Positions 11,982-63,242 of a DNA stretch of 64,000 nt are shown one piece after another. Origin of the DNA: Gari tellinella (Eukaryota; Mollusca; Bivalvia; Cardiida; Psammobiidae). The translations under genes and the position numbers were made by a program. The DNA lies in assembly GCA_922989275.2 (NCBI GenBank), contig OV277856.1, positions 82,913,038-82,977,037 of the forward strand. Reading direction: 5' to 3'. The notes beneath the pieces are model-generated. The model saw only the letters and a program-made list of their open reading frames with translations, ran no database searches and had not been told where the DNA came from. Each line of letters starts with the position of its first letter. Position 1 is the first letter of the stretch.

Positions 11982-14075
11982 AAGAGTTGTAAGAGAGACA
12001 ACAAAGCTTGCCAACAGTACATTTCAAAACTTTAAAGTAGCGTCTGAGGTCCAGCTCACTGGGGTCAAACTTTTTATGTGCATGGAAAGATCTTGTCCAT
12101 ATGATATACACATGCATATCAAATATGAAAGCAACACACCAAGGGACACAGGGCTTATAAGCATTTTTTGAAACCTGAACATTGATTTCAAAACCTAAAT
12201 GGGGATCCTAGTTCAAGCTCAAGGTCACTGGGGTCAAATATTTTGGATGCGTTGAAAGGTCTTGCATATCACACAAAAAATCAATACCTCAAGAGATATA
12301 GGAGTTATATAAAGCATTTCTTAACAAGAGTTGTCAGAGAGACAACAAAGCTCGCCACCGGCACCTTTAGAAACTTAAAAGCACACTCAAGGTCACAGAG
12401 GTCAACCTTTTTGCCTGCATGGAAAGGTCTTGGCAAATCAAATATGAAAATAACACCCCAAGGGACATAGGAATTATAAGCATTTTTGAAACCTAAACGC
12501 AGATTTCGAAACCTAAAATCTTTTGTGACCTTAGTTCAAGGTCAAGGACACTGGGCTAATTTTTTTGCATGCATGGAAAGGTCTTGTCCATATACACATG
12601 CATGCCAAATATGAAAGAAATATCTCAATGGATATATGAGTTAAAGAAATTTTGAGAAACCTAAACGCAGACTTTGAAACCTAAACACGGGTCCTAAGTT
12701 CAAGGTCAGGGTCAGAGGGCTCAAACATTTTGCATGCAAGGAAAGATCTTGTCCATATACACAGGCAAACTGAATATGAAAGGAATATTTCAATGGACAT
12801 AGGAGTAATTAAAATTTTGAGAAACCAAAACTAAACATGGGCCCTAAGTTCAAGGTCAACCCTTGAAGGTCACAGGGGTCTAAGTTTTGCTGTGCCTGGA
12901 AAGGTCTTGTCCATATACACATATAAACCAACTATGGAAGCAATACCTCAAGGGACATAAAAGTTAAAGGCATTTTTCAAAACCTAAACGCAGATTTCGA
13001 AACCTAAACGCAGGCCCTAAGTTCAAGGTCACAGGGGTCTAAATTTTTCTGAGCATGGAAAGGTCTTGTCTATATACACACACATACCAACTATGGAAGC
13101 AATACTTCAAAGGATATAGAAGTTAAAGGCATTTTTCGAAACCTAAACACAGATTTCGAAACTTAAACACAGGCCCTAAGTTCAAGGTCAAGGTCACAGG
13201 GGTCTAAATTTTTCTGTGCATGTAAAGGTCTTGTCCATAAACACATGCATACCAACTATGAAAGCAATACCTCAAAGGACATAGAAGTTAAAGGCATTTT
13301 TCTAAACCTAAACACAGATTTCGAAACCTAAACACAGGCCCTAAGTTCAAGGTCAAGGTCACAGGGGTCTACATTTTTCTGTGCATGTAAAGGTCTTGTC
13401 CATATACACATACATACCAACTATGAAAGCAATACCTCAAGGGACATAGAAGTTAAAGGCATTTTTCTAAACTTAAACACAGATTTCGAAACCTAAACGC
13501 AGGCCCCAAGTTCAAGGTCAAGGTCACAGGGGTCTAAATTTTTCAGAGCATGTAAAGGTCTTGTCCATATACACATACATACCAACTATGAAAGCAATAC
13601 CTCAAGGGACATAGAAGTTAAAGGCATTTTTCTAAACTTAAACACAGATTTCGAAACCAAAACGCAGGCCCTAAGTTCAAGGTCAAGGTCACAGGGGTCC
13701 AAATTTTTCTGAGCATGGAAAGGTCTTGTCTATATACACACACATACGGACTATGGAAGCAATACCTTAAGGGATATAGAAGTTAAAGGCATTTTTCAAA
13801 ACCTAAACGCAGATTTCGAAACCTAAAAGCAGGCCTTAAGTTCAAGGTCAAGGTCACAGGGGTCAAAAATTTTCTGTACATGGGAAGGTCTTGTCCATAT
13901 ACACACACATACCAACTATGAAAGCAATACCTCAAGGGACATAGAAGTTATAGACATTTTCTTAAAAATTTTTACGCCGTTCACCACGCCGCCGACGACA
14001 ACGACAACGACGACGACGACGACTACACCGGGGGTATTGCAATAGCTCGTCATGTACTACGTACAGGCGAGCTAA
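11982..14075 (+). mobile_element. Pearl/Helentron-like element with ~11 tandem core units
   Basis: It opens ACAAGAGTTGTAAGAGAGAC; a second near-identical opening lies inside at 12322 (ACAAGAGTTGTCAGAGAGAC). It closes with AGCTCGTCATGTACTACGTA and CAGGCGAGCTAAAAA, a terminal hairpin. The core is a ~165-180 bp unit (AAGTTCAAGGTCAAGGTCAC, GGAAAGGTCTTGTCCATATA, ATAGAAGTTAAAGGCATTTT) repeated with small variations. A (GACGAC)n tract lies before the end. The same element, ~1.7 kb, recurs at 58181-59893. No coding capacity. Confidence 0.82.
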
Positions 14076-17269: not shown

Positions 17270-17455
17270 AGATAAGGGGGGTATTTCAAAATATAAAATC
17301 TTTATTTCTTGATTAAATCCTATGGTGTCACTACTCATTAGAATCGTCTCTTCGAGACGATTCTAATGAGTAGTAACACAATAGGATTTGGTGCTGAAAT
17401 AAGAGAGGAAATGTTGACTTTGTTCAGATAACTCCTATCTTATCTGGAGCCCTGC
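17270..17455. mobile_element. CAGGG-family MITE
   Basis: GGCTCCAGATAAGGGGGGTA to CTTATCTGGAGCCCTG with the palindrome ACTCATTAGAATCGTCTC around TTCGAGA (17332-17371). Confidence 0.82.
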
Positions 17456-17495
17456 CCTCCAGGTGTACACTGTTTGACATTTACTGCTGCAGGTA

Positions 17496-17950
17496 TTATC
17501 CCATTACCCCATTAACCCTTAGCCCGCCAAATAAATTGTCGTCTGCTATATTTCTCGTCTGCTTCAAGTCTCAAAGTGCTTCAAAGTTGCTCAAAATTGC
17601 TGAAAATGTTGTCCGAGTGTCAAACAGCTTGGATCCGGATAAGACGCCGAGTTACTCGGCGTCTCATCCGGATCCAAGCTGTTTGCACAGGAGCTATAGT
17701 CGTGAGTGGCAGGCTAAGGGTTAATACACATGTTTACACCTCTAATGTATTCCCTTACTGAAGAATATAGTTCAAATTAATACAGTAATGAATATGAATC
17801 ACAATATATATTTTCTATATTCTAGCAGATGTTACCTTAAATCAGGCTGAGAGTAAAGCAGAATGTGCCTTTTGGTGCATTTTGCTTTACTTTCAACCTG
17901 CTTTAAGTGGTCACATGTTTTCAAAACACAGGCTATGGGGTAAAGGGTTA
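17496..17950. mobile_element. TTAA-A MITE interrupted at its left end by TTAA-C
   Basis: The A copy starts CCCATTACCCCATTAA, is interrupted by TTAA-C (17512-17724), resumes ATACACATGTTTACACCTC and ends GCTATGGGGTAAAGGGTTA. The TTAA-C copy has both ends and a palindrome of CAAACAGCTTGGATCCGGAT arms. Confidence 0.85.
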
Positions 17951-19299: not shown

Positions 19300-19339
19300 A
19301 ATTGATCAATCAATGAATATGGATAGAGATCATCAAAGA

Positions 19340-19553
19340 TTAACCCTTAGCCCGCCAAATAAATTGTCGTCTGCTATATTTCTCGTCTGCTTCAAGTTTC
19401 AAAGTGCTTCAAAGTTGCTCAAAATTGCTGAAAATGTTGTCCAAGTGTCAAACAGCTTGGATCCGGATGCGACGCCGAGTTACTCGGCGTCTCATCCGGA
19501 TCCAAGCTGTTTGCACATGGAGCTATAGTCGTGAGTGACAGGCTAAGGGTTAA
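19340..19553. mobile_element. TTAA-C MITE
   Basis: TTAACCCTTAGCCCGCCAAAT to GGCTAAGGGTTAA; palindrome 19448-19512 of AAACAGCTTGGATCCGGATG arms. Confidence 0.88.
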
Positions 19554-44140: not shown

Positions 44141-44307
44141 CGTAACATCATGTATGGGATCGGATTTTATTGCTCCAAGAGTATCTTCGACTTCTACATG
44201 ACACTTTAATACATCACCATTGGTCGGGTCACCACTAGGAAGGTAGATGTTATCCCAGGAAGATTCGTAGCCACGGATAACCACTTTGTCCTCTACTCCG
44301 TCATGAC
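44141..44307 (-). CDS. Exon: REJ module, C-terminal part
   Basis: Two bases completing Cys87, then 55 codons (88-142); acceptor TTTGTTTAAAG, donor ACG|GTAATG. Peptide HDGVEDKVVIRGYESSWDNI, then YLPSGDPTNGDVLKCHVEV and EDTLGAIKSDPIHDVT. Y-L-P-x-G-D...L-x-V-x-V-E-D-x-L-G-A is the classic end of a REJ repeat. The join to exon 48896-49156 restores Cys (T|GT) and gives a continuous REJ fold, so normal splicing must skip the whole intronic array between them. Confidence 0.93.
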
Positions 44308-44334
44308 CTTTAAACAAAAAGTCTCAATAATACA

Positions 44335-44480
44335 ATGTCAGGGCTGCCATAAGTTGAGCTTGAAATAATCTAAGATTTCCAACTTGTCTATTTTTCAAGC
44401 GTGATTACTTAAAGAAGGTTGAAAGTAAAGCAGAATGCGCCTTAAGGCGCAATCTGATTTACTTTCAGCCTGCCTTAAGC
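44335..44480. mobile_element. GCCAT-family fragment, inverted
   Basis: CAGGGCTGCCATAAGTTGAG start and A-type palindrome TTAAAGAAGGTTGAAAG ... CAGCCTGCCTTAAG (44407-44480); the other end is lost. 44481-44800 shows nothing further. Confidence 0.6.
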
Positions 44481-44802
44481 TACTGTCTGCTAGGATAAAA
44501 ATCAGTAGATTTCGAAAAGACTGTAAGAAATATTTTGAATGAGACATTAATTGCTCATCAGGACCTGAATTGTTTGACAGACTGTAACCTTTTTATGAAA
44601 AGAATTTTTTCAAAAACCTATTTTTAGAACAGTAACATTCAAAAGTTAAATGTTAATACATGAGTAAAGCTAACTAAAGTCAAACATACCCACAATCCAA
44701 AGTTGCAGCTAAAATGGTCATGTTTTAACTTTGAAATACAGGTAACCATGGACTTAAAATCTAGAAAAATTACAATTTCTTAAAAAAAGTTGATCATTTC
44801 TT

Positions 44803-45054
44803 TTAACTCTTTCCTCCCTGAAATTTTAAATGGACAATTCCAGTTTCCATCTTAGTCTAGTCCATTTCTGACTTTAAAGGGTTGTTTTTGTCAATGTTTG
44901 GCAATGTGACAAACAGTGAAGACCCTGATCAGAGGGCTCCTTTCGGAGCTCTCTGATCTGGGTCTTCACTGTTTGCATGGGACATATGTACTATTCACAT
45001 GTACACTGTTTGAAAAGCACGCCTATATGAGGGACTAGGGTTCAAAGATTTAAG
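44803..45054. mobile_element. TTAA-B MITE, inverted
   Basis: TTAACTCTTTCCTCCCTGAAA to GGACTAGGGTTCAAAGATTTAA; palindrome ACAGTGAAGACCCTGATC ... GATCTGGGTCTTCACTGT. Confidence 0.86.
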
Positions 45055-45078
45055 CTGAGTGTCTAAAAACTTGAGCCT

Positions 45079-45229
45079 TTAACCCATACCCCATAGCCTG
45101 TTTCTAGTCTTCAAGACATGTGACCACTTTTTGCGTTCATATTCCTGACTGTATATATAGGAACTTTTTTTCTTCAGTGGAGAAATAAAATAAAGACATT
45201 GAAGAGGGTATCTATGAAGTAATAGGTTA
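45079..45229. mobile_element. TTAA-A MITE with its palindrome deleted
   Basis: Both terminal parts are present (TTTAACCCATACCCCATAG; GAAGTAATAGGTTAA), but the sequence jumps from GTGACCACTT to TTGCGTTCATATTCC, so the ~70 bp hairpin is gone. Confidence 0.75.
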
Positions 45230-45318
45230 ACCAACACCAAGTTACGGTGTCACATCTAGTTCCAAACATGTTTATTTGCTGAAATAGTTCAATAACACAG
45301 GCCCGTAGGAACAAGCCC

Positions 45319-45345
45319 GCCCCCCCCCCCCCCCCCCATAATTTT
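45319..45345. repeat. Poly-C tract
   Basis: CCCGCC followed by about 15 C residues; the exact length may be unreliable in assembly. Confidence 0.7.
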
Positions 45346-45558
45346 GCCAATTATAGTAACCAAGCAAATTTTTATATATTTGTACTAAAAAAAGGCCTAA
45401 AAACGCTTGTTTTTACCTAAATTTTAACGAACAACCAAAAAAAATGAAAAAAAACAAAAACGTTGTCAAAGACAAAAAAAATCGGTGGTGCCCCCCAATG
45501 TTGAGTGGCCAATATATAGAAGAAGTGTGTGCCCCCACAATCCATGTGTATACCTGTT

Positions 45559-45808
45559 ATTAACCCTTTCCCCCATAGAAGCGCCTTTTAGCGCATTCAG
45601 TTTATTCCTCCGCTGAAGAAAATAGTTCCAATTCATAGTCATAAATATGTTTCATAAGGAATATTTTCTCAATTCTAGGAGGTGGTAGCTTAAAGCAGGC
45701 TGAAAGAAAAGCAGAATGTGCCTTAGGGCACATTCTGCTTTACTTTCAACCTGCTTTAAGTAGTCATCTATTTTCAAAACTAGAAACAGGTTAGGGGGTA
45801 AAGAGTTA
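45559..45808. mobile_element. TTAA-A MITE
   Basis: TTAACCCTTTCCCCCATAG to GTTAGGGGGTAAAGAGTTAA; palindrome 45689-45762. A one-arm B-like fragment follows at 45855-46010. Confidence 0.83.
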
Positions 45809-46072
45809 ACAAACAATTTATCTGTGGAGAATAAACATTTCCTATATGCAAGCAGTGCAGACCCTGATCAGATGGCTTCTGCAGGAACCCTCAGATCAGG
45901 ATCTACACTTAGTCATTTAATTTGCAGTGTATTGTTAAAATCAACCTTAAAAGTAAAGCACTGACTAAAAGTAATTTCAAATTTAATTTTTTCCAGTAAA
46001 AGTTTCAAGGGTGATTGAGCGAAGAAAATTTACCATTGTGATGGTTAAGCTTAACTGTGTCACTAAAGAAAT

Positions 46073-48940
46073 GTAAATTGTATGAACTTACACAGAACTG
46101 TCTATACCATCTGAAGCAGTGTAACCTGACGTAAAACTGTATGAAAACTAACCCAGGACTGTGTACCATCTGAATCAGTGTAGCCTGAGGTAAAACTGTA
46201 TGAACTTGCACAGAACTGTATAGAGCTGTGTACCATCTGAATCAGTGTAGCCTGAGGTAAAACTGTATGAACTTACACAGAACTGTAAAGAACTGTCTAC
46301 CATCTGAATCAGTGTAACCTGAGGCAAACCTGTATGAACTTACACAGAACTGTATAGAACTGTGTACCATCTGAATTAGTGTAACCTGAGGTAAAACTGT
46401 ATCAACTTACACAGAACTGTATAGAACTGTGTACCATCTGAATAAGTGTAAACTGAGGTAAAATTGTATGAACTTACACTGAACTGTATACCATCTGAAT
46501 CAGTGTAACCTGAGGTAAAATTGTATGAACTTACACAGAACTGTATACCATCTGAATCAGTGTAACCTGAGGTAAAACTGTATGAACTTACACAGAACTG
46601 TATAGAACTGTGTACCATCTGAATCAGTGTAACCTGAGGTAAAATTGTATGAACTTACACAGAACTGTATACCATCTGAAGCAGTGTAACCTGACGTAAA
46701 ACTTTTGAACTTACACAGAACTGTATAGAACTGTATACCATCTGAATCAGTGTAACCTGAGGTAAAATTGTATGAACTTACACAGAACTGTGTACCATCT
46801 GAATCAGGGTAACCTGAGGTAAAACTGTATGAACTTACACAGAACTGTATAGAACTGTGTACCATCTGAATCAGTGTAACAAGAGGTAAAACTTATGAAC
46901 TTACACAGAACTGTATAGAACTGTGTACCATCTGAATCAGTGTAGCCTGAGGTAAAACTTTTGAACTTACACAGAAATGAATAGAAATGTGTACCATCTG
47001 AATCAGTGTAACAAGAGGTAAAACTGTATGAACTTACACAGAACTGTATACCATCTGAATCTGCATAACCTGAGGTAAAACTGTATGAACTTTCACAGAA
47101 CTGTATAGAACTGTGTACCATCTGAATCAGTGTAACCTTAGGTAAAACTGTATGAACTTACACACAACTGTATAGAACTGTGTACCATCTGAATCAGTGT
47201 CTCTTGAGGTAAAACTTATGAACTTACACAGAACTGTATATAACTGTGTACCATCTGAATCAGTGTAGCCTGAGGTAAAACTGTATGAACTTACACAGAA
47301 ATGTATAGAACTGTCTGTGTACCATTTGAATCAGTGTAACCCGAGGTAAAATTGTATGAACTTACACAGAACTGTATAGAACTGTATACCATCTGAATCA
47401 GTGTAACCTGAGGTACAACTGTATGAACTTACATAGAACTGTATACCATCTGAATCTGCATAACCCGAGGTAAAACTGTATGAACTTACACAGAACTGTA
47501 TAGAACTATGTTCCATCTGAATCAGCATAACCCGAGGTAAAACTGTATGAACTTACACAGAACTGTATAGAACTATGTTCCATCTGAATCAGCATAACCT
47601 GAGGTAAAACTGTATGAACTTACACAGAACTGTATAGAACTGTGTACCATCTGAATCAGTGTAATCTGAGGTAAAACTGTATGAACTTACACAAAACTGT
47701 GTACCATCTGAATCAGTGTAATCTGAGGTAAAACTGTATGAACTTACACAGAATTGTATAGAACTGTGTACCATCTGAATCAGTGTAATCTGAGGTAAAA
47801 CTGTATGAACTTACACAGAACTGTGTACCATCTGGATCGGTGTAACCTGAGGTAAAACTGTATGAACTTACACAGAACTGTGTACCATCTGAATCAGCTT
47901 AACCTGAGGTAAAACTGTATCAACTTACACAGAACTGTATAGAACTGTGTACCATCTGAATCAGTGTAACCTGAGGTAAAACTGTATGAACTTACACACA
48001 ACTGTATAGAACTGTGTACCATCTGAATCAGTGTCTCTTGAGGTAAAACGTATGAACTTACACGGAACTGTATATAACTGTGTACCATCTGAATCAGTGT
48101 AGCCTGAGGTAAAACTGTATGAACTTACACAGAAATGTATACCATCTGAATCAGTGTAGCCTGAGGTAAAACTGTATGAACTTACACAGAAATGTATAGA
48201 ACTGTATGTGTACCATCTGAATCAGTGTAACCCGAGGTAAAATTGTATGAACTTACACAGAAATGTATAGAAATGTGTACCATCTGAATCAGTGTAGCCT
48301 GAGGTTAAACTTTATGAACTTACACAGAAATGTATAGAACTGTCTGTGTACCATCTGAATCAGTGTAACATAGGGTAAAATTGTATGAAAACTTACACAG
48401 AACTGTATAGAACTGTGTACCATCTGAATCAGTGTAACCCGAGGTAAAACTGTATGAACTTACACAGAAATGTATAGAACTGTCTGTGTACCATCTGAAT
48501 CAGTGTAACCTGAGATAAAACTGTATAGGACTGTGTACCATCTGAATCAGTGTAACCTGAGGTAAAACTGTATGAACTTACACAGAACTGTGTACCATCT
48601 GAATCAGTGTAACCTGAGGTAAAATTGTATGAACTTACACAGAACTGTATACCATCTGAAGTTGTGTAACCTGACGTAAAACTTATGAACTTACACAGAA
48701 CTGTATAGAACTGTATGCCATCTGAATCAGTGTAACCTGAGGTAAAAGTGTATGAACTTACACAGAACGGTATAGGACTGTATACCATCTGAATAAGTGT
48801 AACCTGAGGTAAAACTGTATGAACTTACACAGAACTGTATAGGACTGTGTACCATCTGAATTAGTGTAACCTGAGGTAAAATTGTATGAACTTACACAGA
48901 ACTGTATAGGACTGTATACCATCTGAATCAGTGTAACCTG
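46073..48940 (-). repeat. Splice-site-bearing minisatellite, ~44 units, derived from the REJ exon 3' end
   Basis: Read on the minus strand, each unit runs ACTGATTCAGATGGTA, (AC)ACAGTTCTGT, GTAAGTTCATACAG, TTTTACCTCAGGTTAC. Units are ~57 bp, or ~67 bp when an extra ATACAGTTCT is present; some are ~71 bp. I count about 44 copies of the CCATCTGAATC marker (plus strand) before the copy that is the real exon end at 48896-48940. Nearly every unit has GTAAGT directly after TTCTGT, as at the real donor, and a pyrimidine-rich ACCTCAG just before GTTACACTG. The segment between these sites is 42 nt in ~67 bp units and 32 nt in ~57 bp units. All copies have the same orientation as the gene. Confidence 0.93.
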
Positions 48941-49156
48941 AACACTGGATAGTATTTTGAGTAACTAAAGATGTTCCACTAGTTGGCGTTATTGTACATG
49001 AACCACCACTTGGAGGGGGGTTCCGTCTGAGATCAACAGTCGTTTGTCCTGATATACTAGCCAGGTCAGTACAGGTGAGGGCCACCTTGAATAATTCACC
49101 CGAACTGTAGCGGTCAAACAACGCCGTATGAATGGTCAGCTCCTCTGAATTGGTTC
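48896..49156 (-). CDS. Exon: REJ module, N-terminal part (source of the array)
   Basis: Two bases of a split codon, 86 codons (residues 1-86) and the first base of Cys87; acceptor TTTTTTTAG, donor CTGT|GTAAGT. Peptide TNSEELTIHTALFDRYSSGE, then LFKVALTCTDLASISGQTTV, NPPPSGGSCTITPTSGTSL and CSGYTDSDGIQSYTVL. The N-x-P-P-x-G-G-x-C...C-S-G-(W/Y)-x-D-x-D-G pattern is the REJ consensus. The last 42 bases (GGTTACACTG onward) are the sequence that has been amplified in the adjoining intron. Confidence 0.94.
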
Positions 49157-58017: not shown

Positions 58018-59977
58018 AACCCTTTGAACCCTAGTCCCGCATATAGGCATCCTTTTCAAACAATGTACATGTGAATAGTACACTTGTCCTATGCAAACAG
58101 TGAAGACCCAGATCAGAGGGCTCCGAAAGGAGCCCTCTGGTCAGGGTCTTCACTGTTTGTCATGATGCCAAACATTGACAACAAGAGTTGTCAGAGAGAC
58201 AACAAAGCTCGCCACCGGCACCTTTAGAAACTTAAAAGCACACTCAAGGTCACAGAGGTCAACCTTTTTGCCTGCATGGAAAGGTCTTGTCCATATACAC
58301 TGGCAAATCAAATATGAAAATAACACCTCAAGGGACATAGGAATTATAAGCATTTTTGAAACCTAAACGCAGATTTCGAAACCTAAAACCTTTCGCGACC
58401 TTAGTTCAAGGTCAAGGACACTGGGCTAATTTTTTTGCATGCATGGAAAGATCGTGTCCATATACACATGCATGCCAAATATGAAAGAAATATCTCAATG
58501 GATATATGAGTTAAAGAAATTTTGAGAAACCTAAACGCAGACTTTGAAACCTAAACGCGGGTCCTTAGTTCAAGGTCAAGGTCAGAGGGCTCAAACATTT
58601 GGCATGCAAGGAAAGATGTTGTCCATATACACATACAAACTGAATATGAAAGGAATATTTCAATGGACATAGGAGAAATAAAAATTTTGAAAAACCAAAA
58701 CGCAGATTTCGAAAACTAAACATTGGCCCTAAGTTCAAAGTCAAGGTCACAGGGGTCTGAATTTTGCAGTGCCTGGAAAGGTCTTGTCCATATACACACA
58801 TAAACCAACTATGAAAGCAATACCTCAAGGGACATAGAAGTAAAAGGCATTTTTCCAAACCTAAACACAGGCCCTAAGTTCAAGGTCACAAGGGTCCAAA
58901 TTTATCTGTGCATGGAAAGGTCTTGTCCATATACACACACATACCAACTATGAAAGCAATACCTCAAAGGATATAGAAGTTAAATGGATTTTCGAAACTT
59001 AAACGCAGATTTCGAAACCTAAACACAGGCTCTTAGTTCAAGGTCAAGGTCACAGGGGTCTAAATGTTTCTGTGCATCGAAAGGTCATGTCCATATACAC
59101 ATACATACCAACTATGAAAGCAATACCTCAAAGGACATAGAAGTTAAAGGCATTTTTCTAAACACAGGCCCTAAGTTCAAGGTCAAGGTGACAGGGGTCT
59201 AAATTTTTCTGAGCATGTAATGGTCTTGTCTTCATACAAACACATACAGACTATGGAAGCAATACCTTAAGGGATATAGAAGTTAAAGGCATTTTTCAAA
59301 ACCTAAACACAGATTTAGAAACCTAAACGCAGGCCCTAAGTTCAAGGTCAAGGTCACAGGGGTCAAACATTTTCTGTGCATGGAAAGGTCTTGTCCATAT
59401 ACACACACATACCAACTATTGAAGCAATACCTCAAGGGACATAGAAGTTAAAAGGCATTTTTCGAAACCTAAACGCAGATTTCGAAACCTAAACGCAGGC
59501 CCTAAGTTCAAGGTCAAGGTCACAGGGGTCTAAATTTTTCTGTGCATGGAAAGGTCATGTCTATATACACACACATACCAACTATGGAAGCAAAACCTTA
59601 ATGGATATAGGAGTTAAAGGCATTTTTCAAAACCTAAACGCAGATTTCGAAACCTAAACGCAGGCCCTAAGTTCAAGGTCAAGGTCACAGGGGTCTAAAT
59701 TTTTCTGTGCATGGAAAGGTCTTGTCCATATACACACACATACCAACTATGAAAGCAATACCTCAAGGGACATAGAAGTTATAGACATTTTCTTAAAATT
59801 GTTTACGCCGTTCACGACGATGCGAAGACAACGACGACGACTACACCGGGGGTATTGCAATAGCTCGTCATGTACTACGTACAGGCGAGCTAAAAACAAC
59901 CCTTCAAAGTCAGAAATGGACTAGACTAAAATGGAAACTGGAATTGTCCATTTAAAGTTTCAGGCAGGAAAGAGTTA
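58018..59977. mobile_element. TTAA-B MITE split by the pearl-like element
   Basis: B begins TTAACCCTTTGAACCCTAG, contains a complete palindrome and reaches AAACATTGACAA at 58180. It resumes AACAACCCTTCAAAGTC at 59896 and ends GGCAGGAAAGAGTTAA. Comparison with intact B copies gives the exact empty site. Confidence 0.88.
58181..59893 (+). mobile_element. Pearl/Helentron-like element inserted in TTAA-B
   Basis: Same family as 11982-14075: start CAAGAGTTGTCAGAGAGAC, ~165-180 bp units (CTAAGTTCAAGGTCAAGGTC, GGAAAGGTCTTGTCCATATA), a (GAC)n tract and an end hairpin TAGCTCGTCATGTACTACG / TACAGGCGAGCTAAAAA. No clear target duplication; flanks are only A-rich. Confidence 0.86.
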
Positions 59978-62623: not shown

Positions 62624-63021
62624 ACCTTTTACCGCCATAGGTGACCAAAGTTGATTTTGCAAACAGTTTTGATCCAGATCTGACACCGTATCTGATCAGG
62701 ATCCAAAATGTTCTGCTCTCATATCAACATTTCCACAGTCAAAATTAAAAAAAGTTAATTTGGCATGAAATTGCAGACATAAATTTTTTTCAAAAAATGG
62801 CAGACAATTAACCCTTAGCCTGCCACTCACGACTATAGCTCCATATGCAAACAGCTTGGATCCGGATGAGACGCCGAGTAACTCGGCGTCTCATCCGGAT
62901 CCAAGCTGTTTGACACTCGGACAACATTTTCAGCAATTTTGAGCAACTTTGAAGCACTTTGAAACTTGAAGCAGAAGAGAAATATAGCAGACGACAAATT
63001 ATTTGGCGGGCTAAGGGTTAA
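62624..63021. mobile_element. H-type MITE interrupted by TTAA-C
   Basis: An H-like body (AAACCTTTTACCGCCATAGG, palindrome 62659-62711 with a shortened centre) is cut by a complete TTAA-C at 62808-63021 (TTAACCCTTAGCCTGCCACT ... GGCGGGCTAAGGGTTAA). Confidence 0.78.
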
Positions 63022-63047
63022 TATATTGACTGATAAGAATAGACCCT

Positions 63048-63242
63048 TAACTCTTTCAACACCATGGACCTGTTTAAAATATAGGAGCCCTCTGATCTGG
63101 GTCTACACTGTTTGCTAATTAAAACCAGTATTTTTTAAATAAACCAGAATTCCAAGTGGACTGGTTTATGTTTTGGTAACTTAAATGATCCACAAATGAA
63201 CCTAATAACCCACAAGAGTTATTTAGTGTTGAAAGAGTTAAA
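63048..63242. mobile_element. TTAA-B-like MITE, one arm
   Basis: TTAACTCTTTCAACACCATGG to TAGTGTTGAAAGAGTTAA. Only the GGAGCCCTCTGATC...CTACACTGTTTGC arm remains; the interior is diverged from B. Confidence 0.65.

Follow-up and report, generated by a model that had tools for sequence, protein, structure and literature searches.

The REJ exon and its host gene

The window (the whole stretch of DNA analysed, 64,000 nt) contains a gene with a REJ module on the minus strand. Guided by open frames and splice motifs, we drew up a model of nine exons by eye, with GT/AG borders. Two successive exons, called a and b here, encode the REJ module, and the intron that separates them begins with a long tandem array. 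The features are as follows, all on the minus strand.

48896..49156, minus strand: REJ exon a, matching Pfam REJ PF02010 at profile positions 284-345 (E 1.1e-11), with the splice context TTTTTTTAG / GTAAGTTC
48871..48895, minus strand: GTAAGT, the authentic donor of exon a, and the 25 nt that lead to the first acceptor-like AG in the copies, from sequence and alignment
46069..48895, minus strand: array region, in which the donor and intron start of the exon itself (48895-48871) precede 44 copies, from the unit alignment, TRF and per-site counts
48510..48556, minus strand: unit u07, a 47-nt copy whose donor is gone through an internal deletion, from the alignment
46069..46125, minus strand: terminal copy u45, with a 3' part that becomes ordinary intron sequence (CAATTTACATTTCTTTAG) as it diverges, from sequence and alignment
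44308..46068, minus strand: rest of the host intron, with no GTAAGT, compared with 41 in the array when the authentic donor is included
44141..44307, minus strand: next exon b of the REJ module, where a direct join from exon a gives a Cys and a continuous REJ match

Exon a alone scores 44.4 bits against the REJ profile (PF02010), above the curated cut-off of 25. Exon b alone matches profile positions 363-404 with 18.1 bits, which is under this cut-off. When the two exons are joined directly, one match of 72.4 bits covers positions 271-404. That skipping the array gives a normal REJ join at T/GT, a Cys codon, had been claimed in the original prediction, and the single match running across the junction of 48896-49156 with 44141-44307 bears this out. 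The insertion of one 14-residue unit between the exons gives 68.3 bits, a cost of only 4.1 bits, and the insertion of two gives 63.5 bits. Since the REJ score is best when the array is skipped, the direct join is the natural REJ module. Judged by profile score, a single 14-residue insert appears not to be grossly disruptive to the module, and one such insert might be tolerated by the REJ fold.

Near 10.1-10.3 kb, an exon matches GPS with 20.8 bits, just under the cut-off of 22.5. From the REJ module, this weak GPS match and general knowledge of the family, the host gene is probably a polycystin-1/REJ-like receptor. When exons a-e are joined in one frame, the frame breaks after exon c. The nine-exon model is therefore incomplete, with small exons missing or some borders wrong. 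A search for protein homologues gave no match in a collection that may contain few animal proteins. Solved structures gave two matches only, both at the chance level (E about 1), and no match was found in Rfam. The unit pattern of the array was not found in viral contigs.

Architecture of the array

The last 42 nt of exon a (48896-48937) are the exonic template of the array. Together with about 25 nt of adjoining intron, they are repeated in tandem 44 times, as far as about position 46069. Each unit consists of the exon end, the donor and an acceptor-like junction. Read on the minus strand from exon 48896-49156 into the intron, the sequence runs ...CAGTTCTGT/GTAAGTTCATACAATTTTACCTCAG/GTTACACTAATTCAGATGG... 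and then repeats. Units were anchored on a conserved core, which gave 43 pieces, two of them holding two copies each, and thus 45 aligned copies. In the numbering of this alignment, u01 is the real exon end with its donor (start 48937), u02-u44 are the 43 intronic copies and u45 is the terminal partial copy. The latter starts at 46125, and its lower end at 46069 is a chosen cut at 57 nt. The copies tile the stretch without gaps and all lie in the orientation of the gene. TRF calls the array at 46158-48526 with a period of 67, 36.7 copies and a score of 3169. The alignment and TRF thus confirm the intronic array of about 44 exon-end copies, with donor and acceptor-like site in gene orientation, that had been predicted.

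The main unit lengths are 57-71 nt, and the consensus is 67 nt. With u01 included, 19 units have 67 nt, 12 have 57, six have 66 and four have 71; lengths of 47, 59 and 69 nt occur once each, in addition to the terminal copy. In the alignment, the 57-nt class is without one of two 10-nt near-repeats within the exonic part. Both u07 (48556-48510) and the 57-nt units seem to have arisen by deletion between short repeats inside the unit (ACAGTT, CAGTTCT), and one of these deletions takes away the donor.

On average, two units among u02-u44 differ by about 10%, a value that includes a penalty of 0.02 for gapped pairs. This value and the TRF match exclude chance as the source of the array. The array could instead be an assembly artefact, either mis-joined or collapsed. 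Misassembly of tandem arrays is common, and the draft-genome version of one lancelet case described below was apparently such an error (PMC3087553). Here the copies differ by about 10%, fall into several length classes and carry many private variants, which indicates a real sequence even if its copy number may be uncertain. An assembly artefact is extremely improbable.

The surroundings of the array are rich in repeats. The window has 13 tandem arrays with a TRF score of at least 200, covering 12,405 of 64,000 nt. When 13 arrays and nine modelled exons were placed at random, at least one array lay over an exon edge in 90% of the trials, in a calculation that ignores selection removing arrays that cover exons. 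In a window so rich in tandem arrays, it is therefore unsurprising that one touches an exon edge.

Several further repeats were noticed. The arrays at 12439-13960 and 58244-59791, 45 kb apart, have a common 165-bp unit family with GTTCAAGGTCAAGGTCACAGGGGTC. Open-frame fragments at 1942-2172, 17398-17724, 19301-19528 and 62833-63102, on both strands, encode nearly the same peptide, NSLDPD-TPSY-ASHPDPSCLH, and probably belong to a dispersed repeat. In the host intron, downstream of the array, 18 consecutive G stand on the minus strand at 45320-45337. Short elements resembling inverted repeats (e.g. GCAGAATGTGCCCTAAGGCACATTCTGC) were seen by eye in the same downstream part at about 44420-44490, 44920-44965, 45710-45740 and 45855-45925.

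Variation at the copied splice sites

The donor GT is retained in 41 and the full GTAAGT in 40 of the 44 copies u02-u45. An acceptor-like AG is present at 34 of the 44 unit boundaries, and at two of the ten boundaries counted as having lost it (the ends of u14 and u27) the alignment keeps an AG one base off. Per-site variation was measured on the 43 intronic copies u02-u44 and compared with random sets of unit positions. These statistics take unit positions as exchangeable, and the trees used below ignore exchange between units, which makes all P values approximate.

Variation averages 0.046 per site. The donor GT has 0.035 and GTAAGT 0.019, and the probability of equally low variation by frequency is 0.51 and 0.11, respectively. 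Inferred changes give the same picture. On a FastTree tree of u01-u44, GTAAGT has 0.83 steps vs 1.21 (P 0.30) and the donor GT, with 1.5, is not low; a second count of inferred changes gives a P value of 0.26 for GTAAGT. The retention of GTAAGT in 40/44 copies, on the conserved side of the distribution, may reflect a weak constraint on donors. Variation is similar in the exonic part of the unit and in its intronic part (0.050 vs 0.040 per site; 1.17 vs 1.28 inferred steps). Codon positions 1, 2 and 3 are about equal, with position 2 slightly lower (variation 0.055, 0.043 and 0.051; inferred steps 1.29, 0.93 and 1.29).

The acceptor AG has a variation of 0.143, which is high by frequency (P 0.03). 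On the FastTree tree, it has 4.5 steps per site vs 1.2, the highest of all neighbouring pairs, and the P of a higher value is 0.002. On a neighbour-joining (NJ) tree, it ranks second of 66 pairs (P 0.023). The acceptors of the array are thus not maintained. The original prediction had proposed to ask whether splice-site bases vary less than the rest of the unit; the donors do not do so significantly, and the AG is, if anything, among the most variable positions, so that this test speaks against function. Its caution that homogenisation alone could explain the kept GTAAGT was right, given P values of 0.11 by frequency and 0.26-0.30 by events.

The excess loss of AG could reflect selection that strips acceptors because the inclusion of a pseudo-exon is harmful, while bare donors are tolerated. 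The step counts and the frequency test given above agree with such purging. However, the signal is not robust. It falls to P 0.09 and rank 9 of 66 when neighbouring identical variants are collapsed, and on 20 bootstrap trees the median P is 0.031 and the maximum 0.10. Positions just across the unit junction (e.g. unit base 2) also show raised variation, and a hotspot at the duplication junction explains the loss of AG equally well. In addition, the two shifted AGs count among the losses. The excess is suggestive only, and purging by selection is unlikely.

Can copies be spliced in?

As its alternative to a silent minisatellite, the original prediction had proposed a source of optional repeat-length variants. 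In such a scheme, chosen units would be spliced in and lengthen the REJ module by 14-residue CYTDSDGTQFYTVL-like repeats. The segment between acceptor and donor is a multiple of three in 26 of the 44 copies, and 22 of these 26 are free of stops. An AG before, a GT after, a kept frame and no stop are found together in 16/44 copies, including the first three after the exon. The predicted arithmetic (42 nt, phase 1-1, 14 residues added) is therefore right for this minority of copies. It had missed a frame-shifting class of 46 nt (u08, u10, u12 and u26) that exists besides the 32-nt class. The REJ scores also leave room for one or two inserted units, both being above the cut-off.

The remaining evidence points the other way. 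In cassette or optional exons, splice sites and frame would be kept by selection. Here AG is not conserved and is absent at 10/44 boundaries, 18/44 segments shift the frame, 4/26 in-frame segments contain a stop and the codon positions vary alike. The 34 intact acceptors of the array have a mean of 10.6 pyrimidines out of 16 (range 8-12), compared with 12.0 (10-14) in the nine modelled acceptors. A second AG lies at most 16 nt upstream in 27/34 array acceptors vs 2/9 modelled exons. By these sequence features, the array acceptors are weaker than those of the modelled exons yet overlap with them, and they are not dead. The segments of 32-42 nt are microexon-sized, which by this general size rule also speaks against their use. 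Only 24-27 nt separate the donor from the next unit in 43 of the 44 units, which is shorter than any animal intron known to us. Splicing between copies would therefore need to skip units. The site statistics and frame counts rule against an array of optional exons as the main reading. It is very unlikely, and AG decay, donors that are not preferentially conserved, frame shifts and stops leave the predicted source of length variants unsupported.

When an inner donor is used alone, the extension of exon a reads CKFIQFYLRLH and then meets a stop. A recursive-splicing ratchet was rejected, as the junction AG/GTTACA would be a poor regenerated donor; this is a reading of the sequence rather than a computed score.

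Origin and growth of the array

The array is very probably a passive intronic minisatellite that began with a tandem duplication spanning the 3' border of the REJ exon and expanded to about 44 copies. The copy structure, the site statistics and the fit of the REJ module support the minisatellite seeded at an exon/intron border that had been put forward as one of two possibilities. A unit extends from the exonic TTCAG/GTTACAC (Ser-Gly codons) to TTTTACC in the intron, about 25 nt past the exon. Each junction sets the exonic (T)CAG/G behind an intronic pyrimidine stretch, so that the mimicry of an acceptor is accidental. The acceptor-like site would thus be a fusion of intronic pyrimidines with exonic CAG rather than a copied acceptor, as far as the sequence can tell. 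The donor would be present in every copy by descent.

We searched the nine modelled exons with 40-nt flanks against the window. Only exon a has copies of exon sequence elsewhere (46 matches, in the array). Three more matches, 18-38 nt long (E 3e-4 to 5e-3), came from exons d and h; all of them involve intronic flanks and no exon sequence, and the one from d lies about 1 kb from exon d. An origin of the array from another exon or from a dispersed repeat was rejected, as among the nine modelled exons only exon a has exon sequence that recurs in the window.

After the seeding duplication, the passive minisatellite would have expanded by slippage or unequal exchange. Units u14-u16 resemble u27-u29, and such a three-unit block copy is what segmental growth of an array leaves. 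Within these matching blocks, u15 and u28 (47203-47137 and 48037-47971) share the rare variants GAGACACTG and GTTGTGTGTAAG, a sign of block duplication. As regards the concerted evolution that marks mirages (described below) away from their border units, neighbouring units are only slightly closer to each other than average (0.092 vs 0.102). Units u02 and u03 differ little from the exon copy (0.045), yet some distant units are closer. The sequence CAATTTACATTTCTTTAG that follows the terminal copy may be the original continuation of the intron.

The spliceosome most likely defines exon a by its own acceptor and the first donor, and would remove the array as part of the 4.6-kb intron. If a later donor were used now and then, exon a would, as we infer for the fate of mis-spliced RNA, be extended into an early stop.

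Comparison with known systems

Minisatellite-like tandem duplications of exon/intron boundaries are described as "mirages" in lancelets, in Adh3, the globins BflGb6 and BflGb9, TnC and PGBD5 (PMC3087553, PMC3902484), with PGBD5, Adh and TnC given as the further cases (PMC3902484). In the account of PMC3087553, either border of an exon can be duplicated, and AG/GT signals are found on many but not all repeats. The Adh3 units have 10-72 bp, BflGb6 has three or six units of 150-160 bp and BflGb9 has one duplicate of 157 bp (PMC3087553). RT-PCR of the globins and the Adh3 data are reported there to suggest that regular splicing is undisturbed, in line with the passive reading here, and the clusters are reported to be unstable in length (PMC3087553). 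The present array likewise consists of tandem units of exon edge and adjoining intron, with AG and GT in many but not all of them. Its unit spans the exon-intron border (42 nt plus about 25 nt), and the 44 copies stand head-to-tail in one orientation. Unlike the globin mirages, it has as many as 44 copies, mostly of 57-71 bp, and lies in a REJ receptor gene; neutrality for splicing and length instability are reported for the lancelet cases only.

The array also spans and multiplies the donor of an exon (GTAAGT in 40/44 copies), as do two human arrays. In ABCA7, the VNTR of intron 18 has 25-bp units, from about 12 to about 427 copies, and starts with the donor GT of exon 18 (PMC5954066). As in the present case, a donor is multiplied within an intron in tens of copies, and the ABCA7 array begins exactly at the donor of its exon. 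Its unit is described as intronic from the donor GT on and, in this description, is without exon sequence or an acceptor-like site, unlike the unit found here. Retention of one unit is reported at a low level that does not change with array length, and skipping of exon 19 grows with length (PMC5954066). Effects on splicing and disease were measured for ABCA7, whereas the present array is known from its sequence. The other human array is a 31-bp VNTR of CBS, c.1444_1467+7(16_21), at the boundary of exon 13 and intron 13 with 16-21 copies (PMC2630376). By its name, the unit has 24 nt of exon and 7 nt of intron, i.e., an exon end with its donor, as in our array. It differs in its shorter unit and fewer copies, and a review calls it non-coding sequence (PMC5188458).

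These human cases suggest that the length of the array could matter even if the array itself is unselected. A longer array might alter the splicing of the flanking exons, e.g. through rare use of a second donor or skipping of the next exon, and might thereby make receptor dosage depend on the allele. Such an effect is compatible with a passive origin. The ABCA7 VNTR, with the same start point, and its length-dependent exon skipping favour it, as does the lower CBS activity linked to more repeats in the same review (PMC5188458). The 41 GTAAGT sites of the array, the authentic one counted, also favour it. Against it, the retention of one ABCA7 unit was constant across array lengths, and only exon 19 skipping changed (PMC5954066). 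We consider this effect of length a tentative possibility. A more elaborate version is quite unlikely. In that version, each unit would add a competing donor and a weak acceptor, the variable copy number would set the share of mRNA with an intact REJ module, and acceptors would be purged while donors persist. If it held, the array would offer a natural series for the domestication or silencing of an exon-border minisatellite and, among invertebrates, a parallel to the ABCA7 VNTR.

In humans, novel introns have also been connected with variable tandem repeats that lie at exon-intron boundaries (PMC2812944). A review covers the gain of introns through tandem genomic duplication of AGGT (PMC3443670), and Drosophila cases are given in PMC2891723. 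As in these accounts, AG/G and a donor are brought into register in the present array, here at the exonic TTCAG/GTT. Unlike in these accounts, no new intron is needed, as the copies lie inside an intron that reaches 1.8 kb past them.

Among the matches listed in a search of the open-licence literature, there was no report of an exon-border minisatellite in a mollusc or a REJ gene. Read as a passive minisatellite, the array is a large further case of the exon-border minisatellites of lancelets and humans and reveals no new mechanism. Behind a single exon defined by its acceptor stand 41 GTAAGT donors, of which one is the true donor. The array is a natural test case for how the spliceosome settles on the first among many equal donors, and for what keeps exon-border minisatellites harmless. 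The REJ match, from what is known of the family, points to an animal, and the array may carry the pattern seen in lancelets and humans into another animal lineage.
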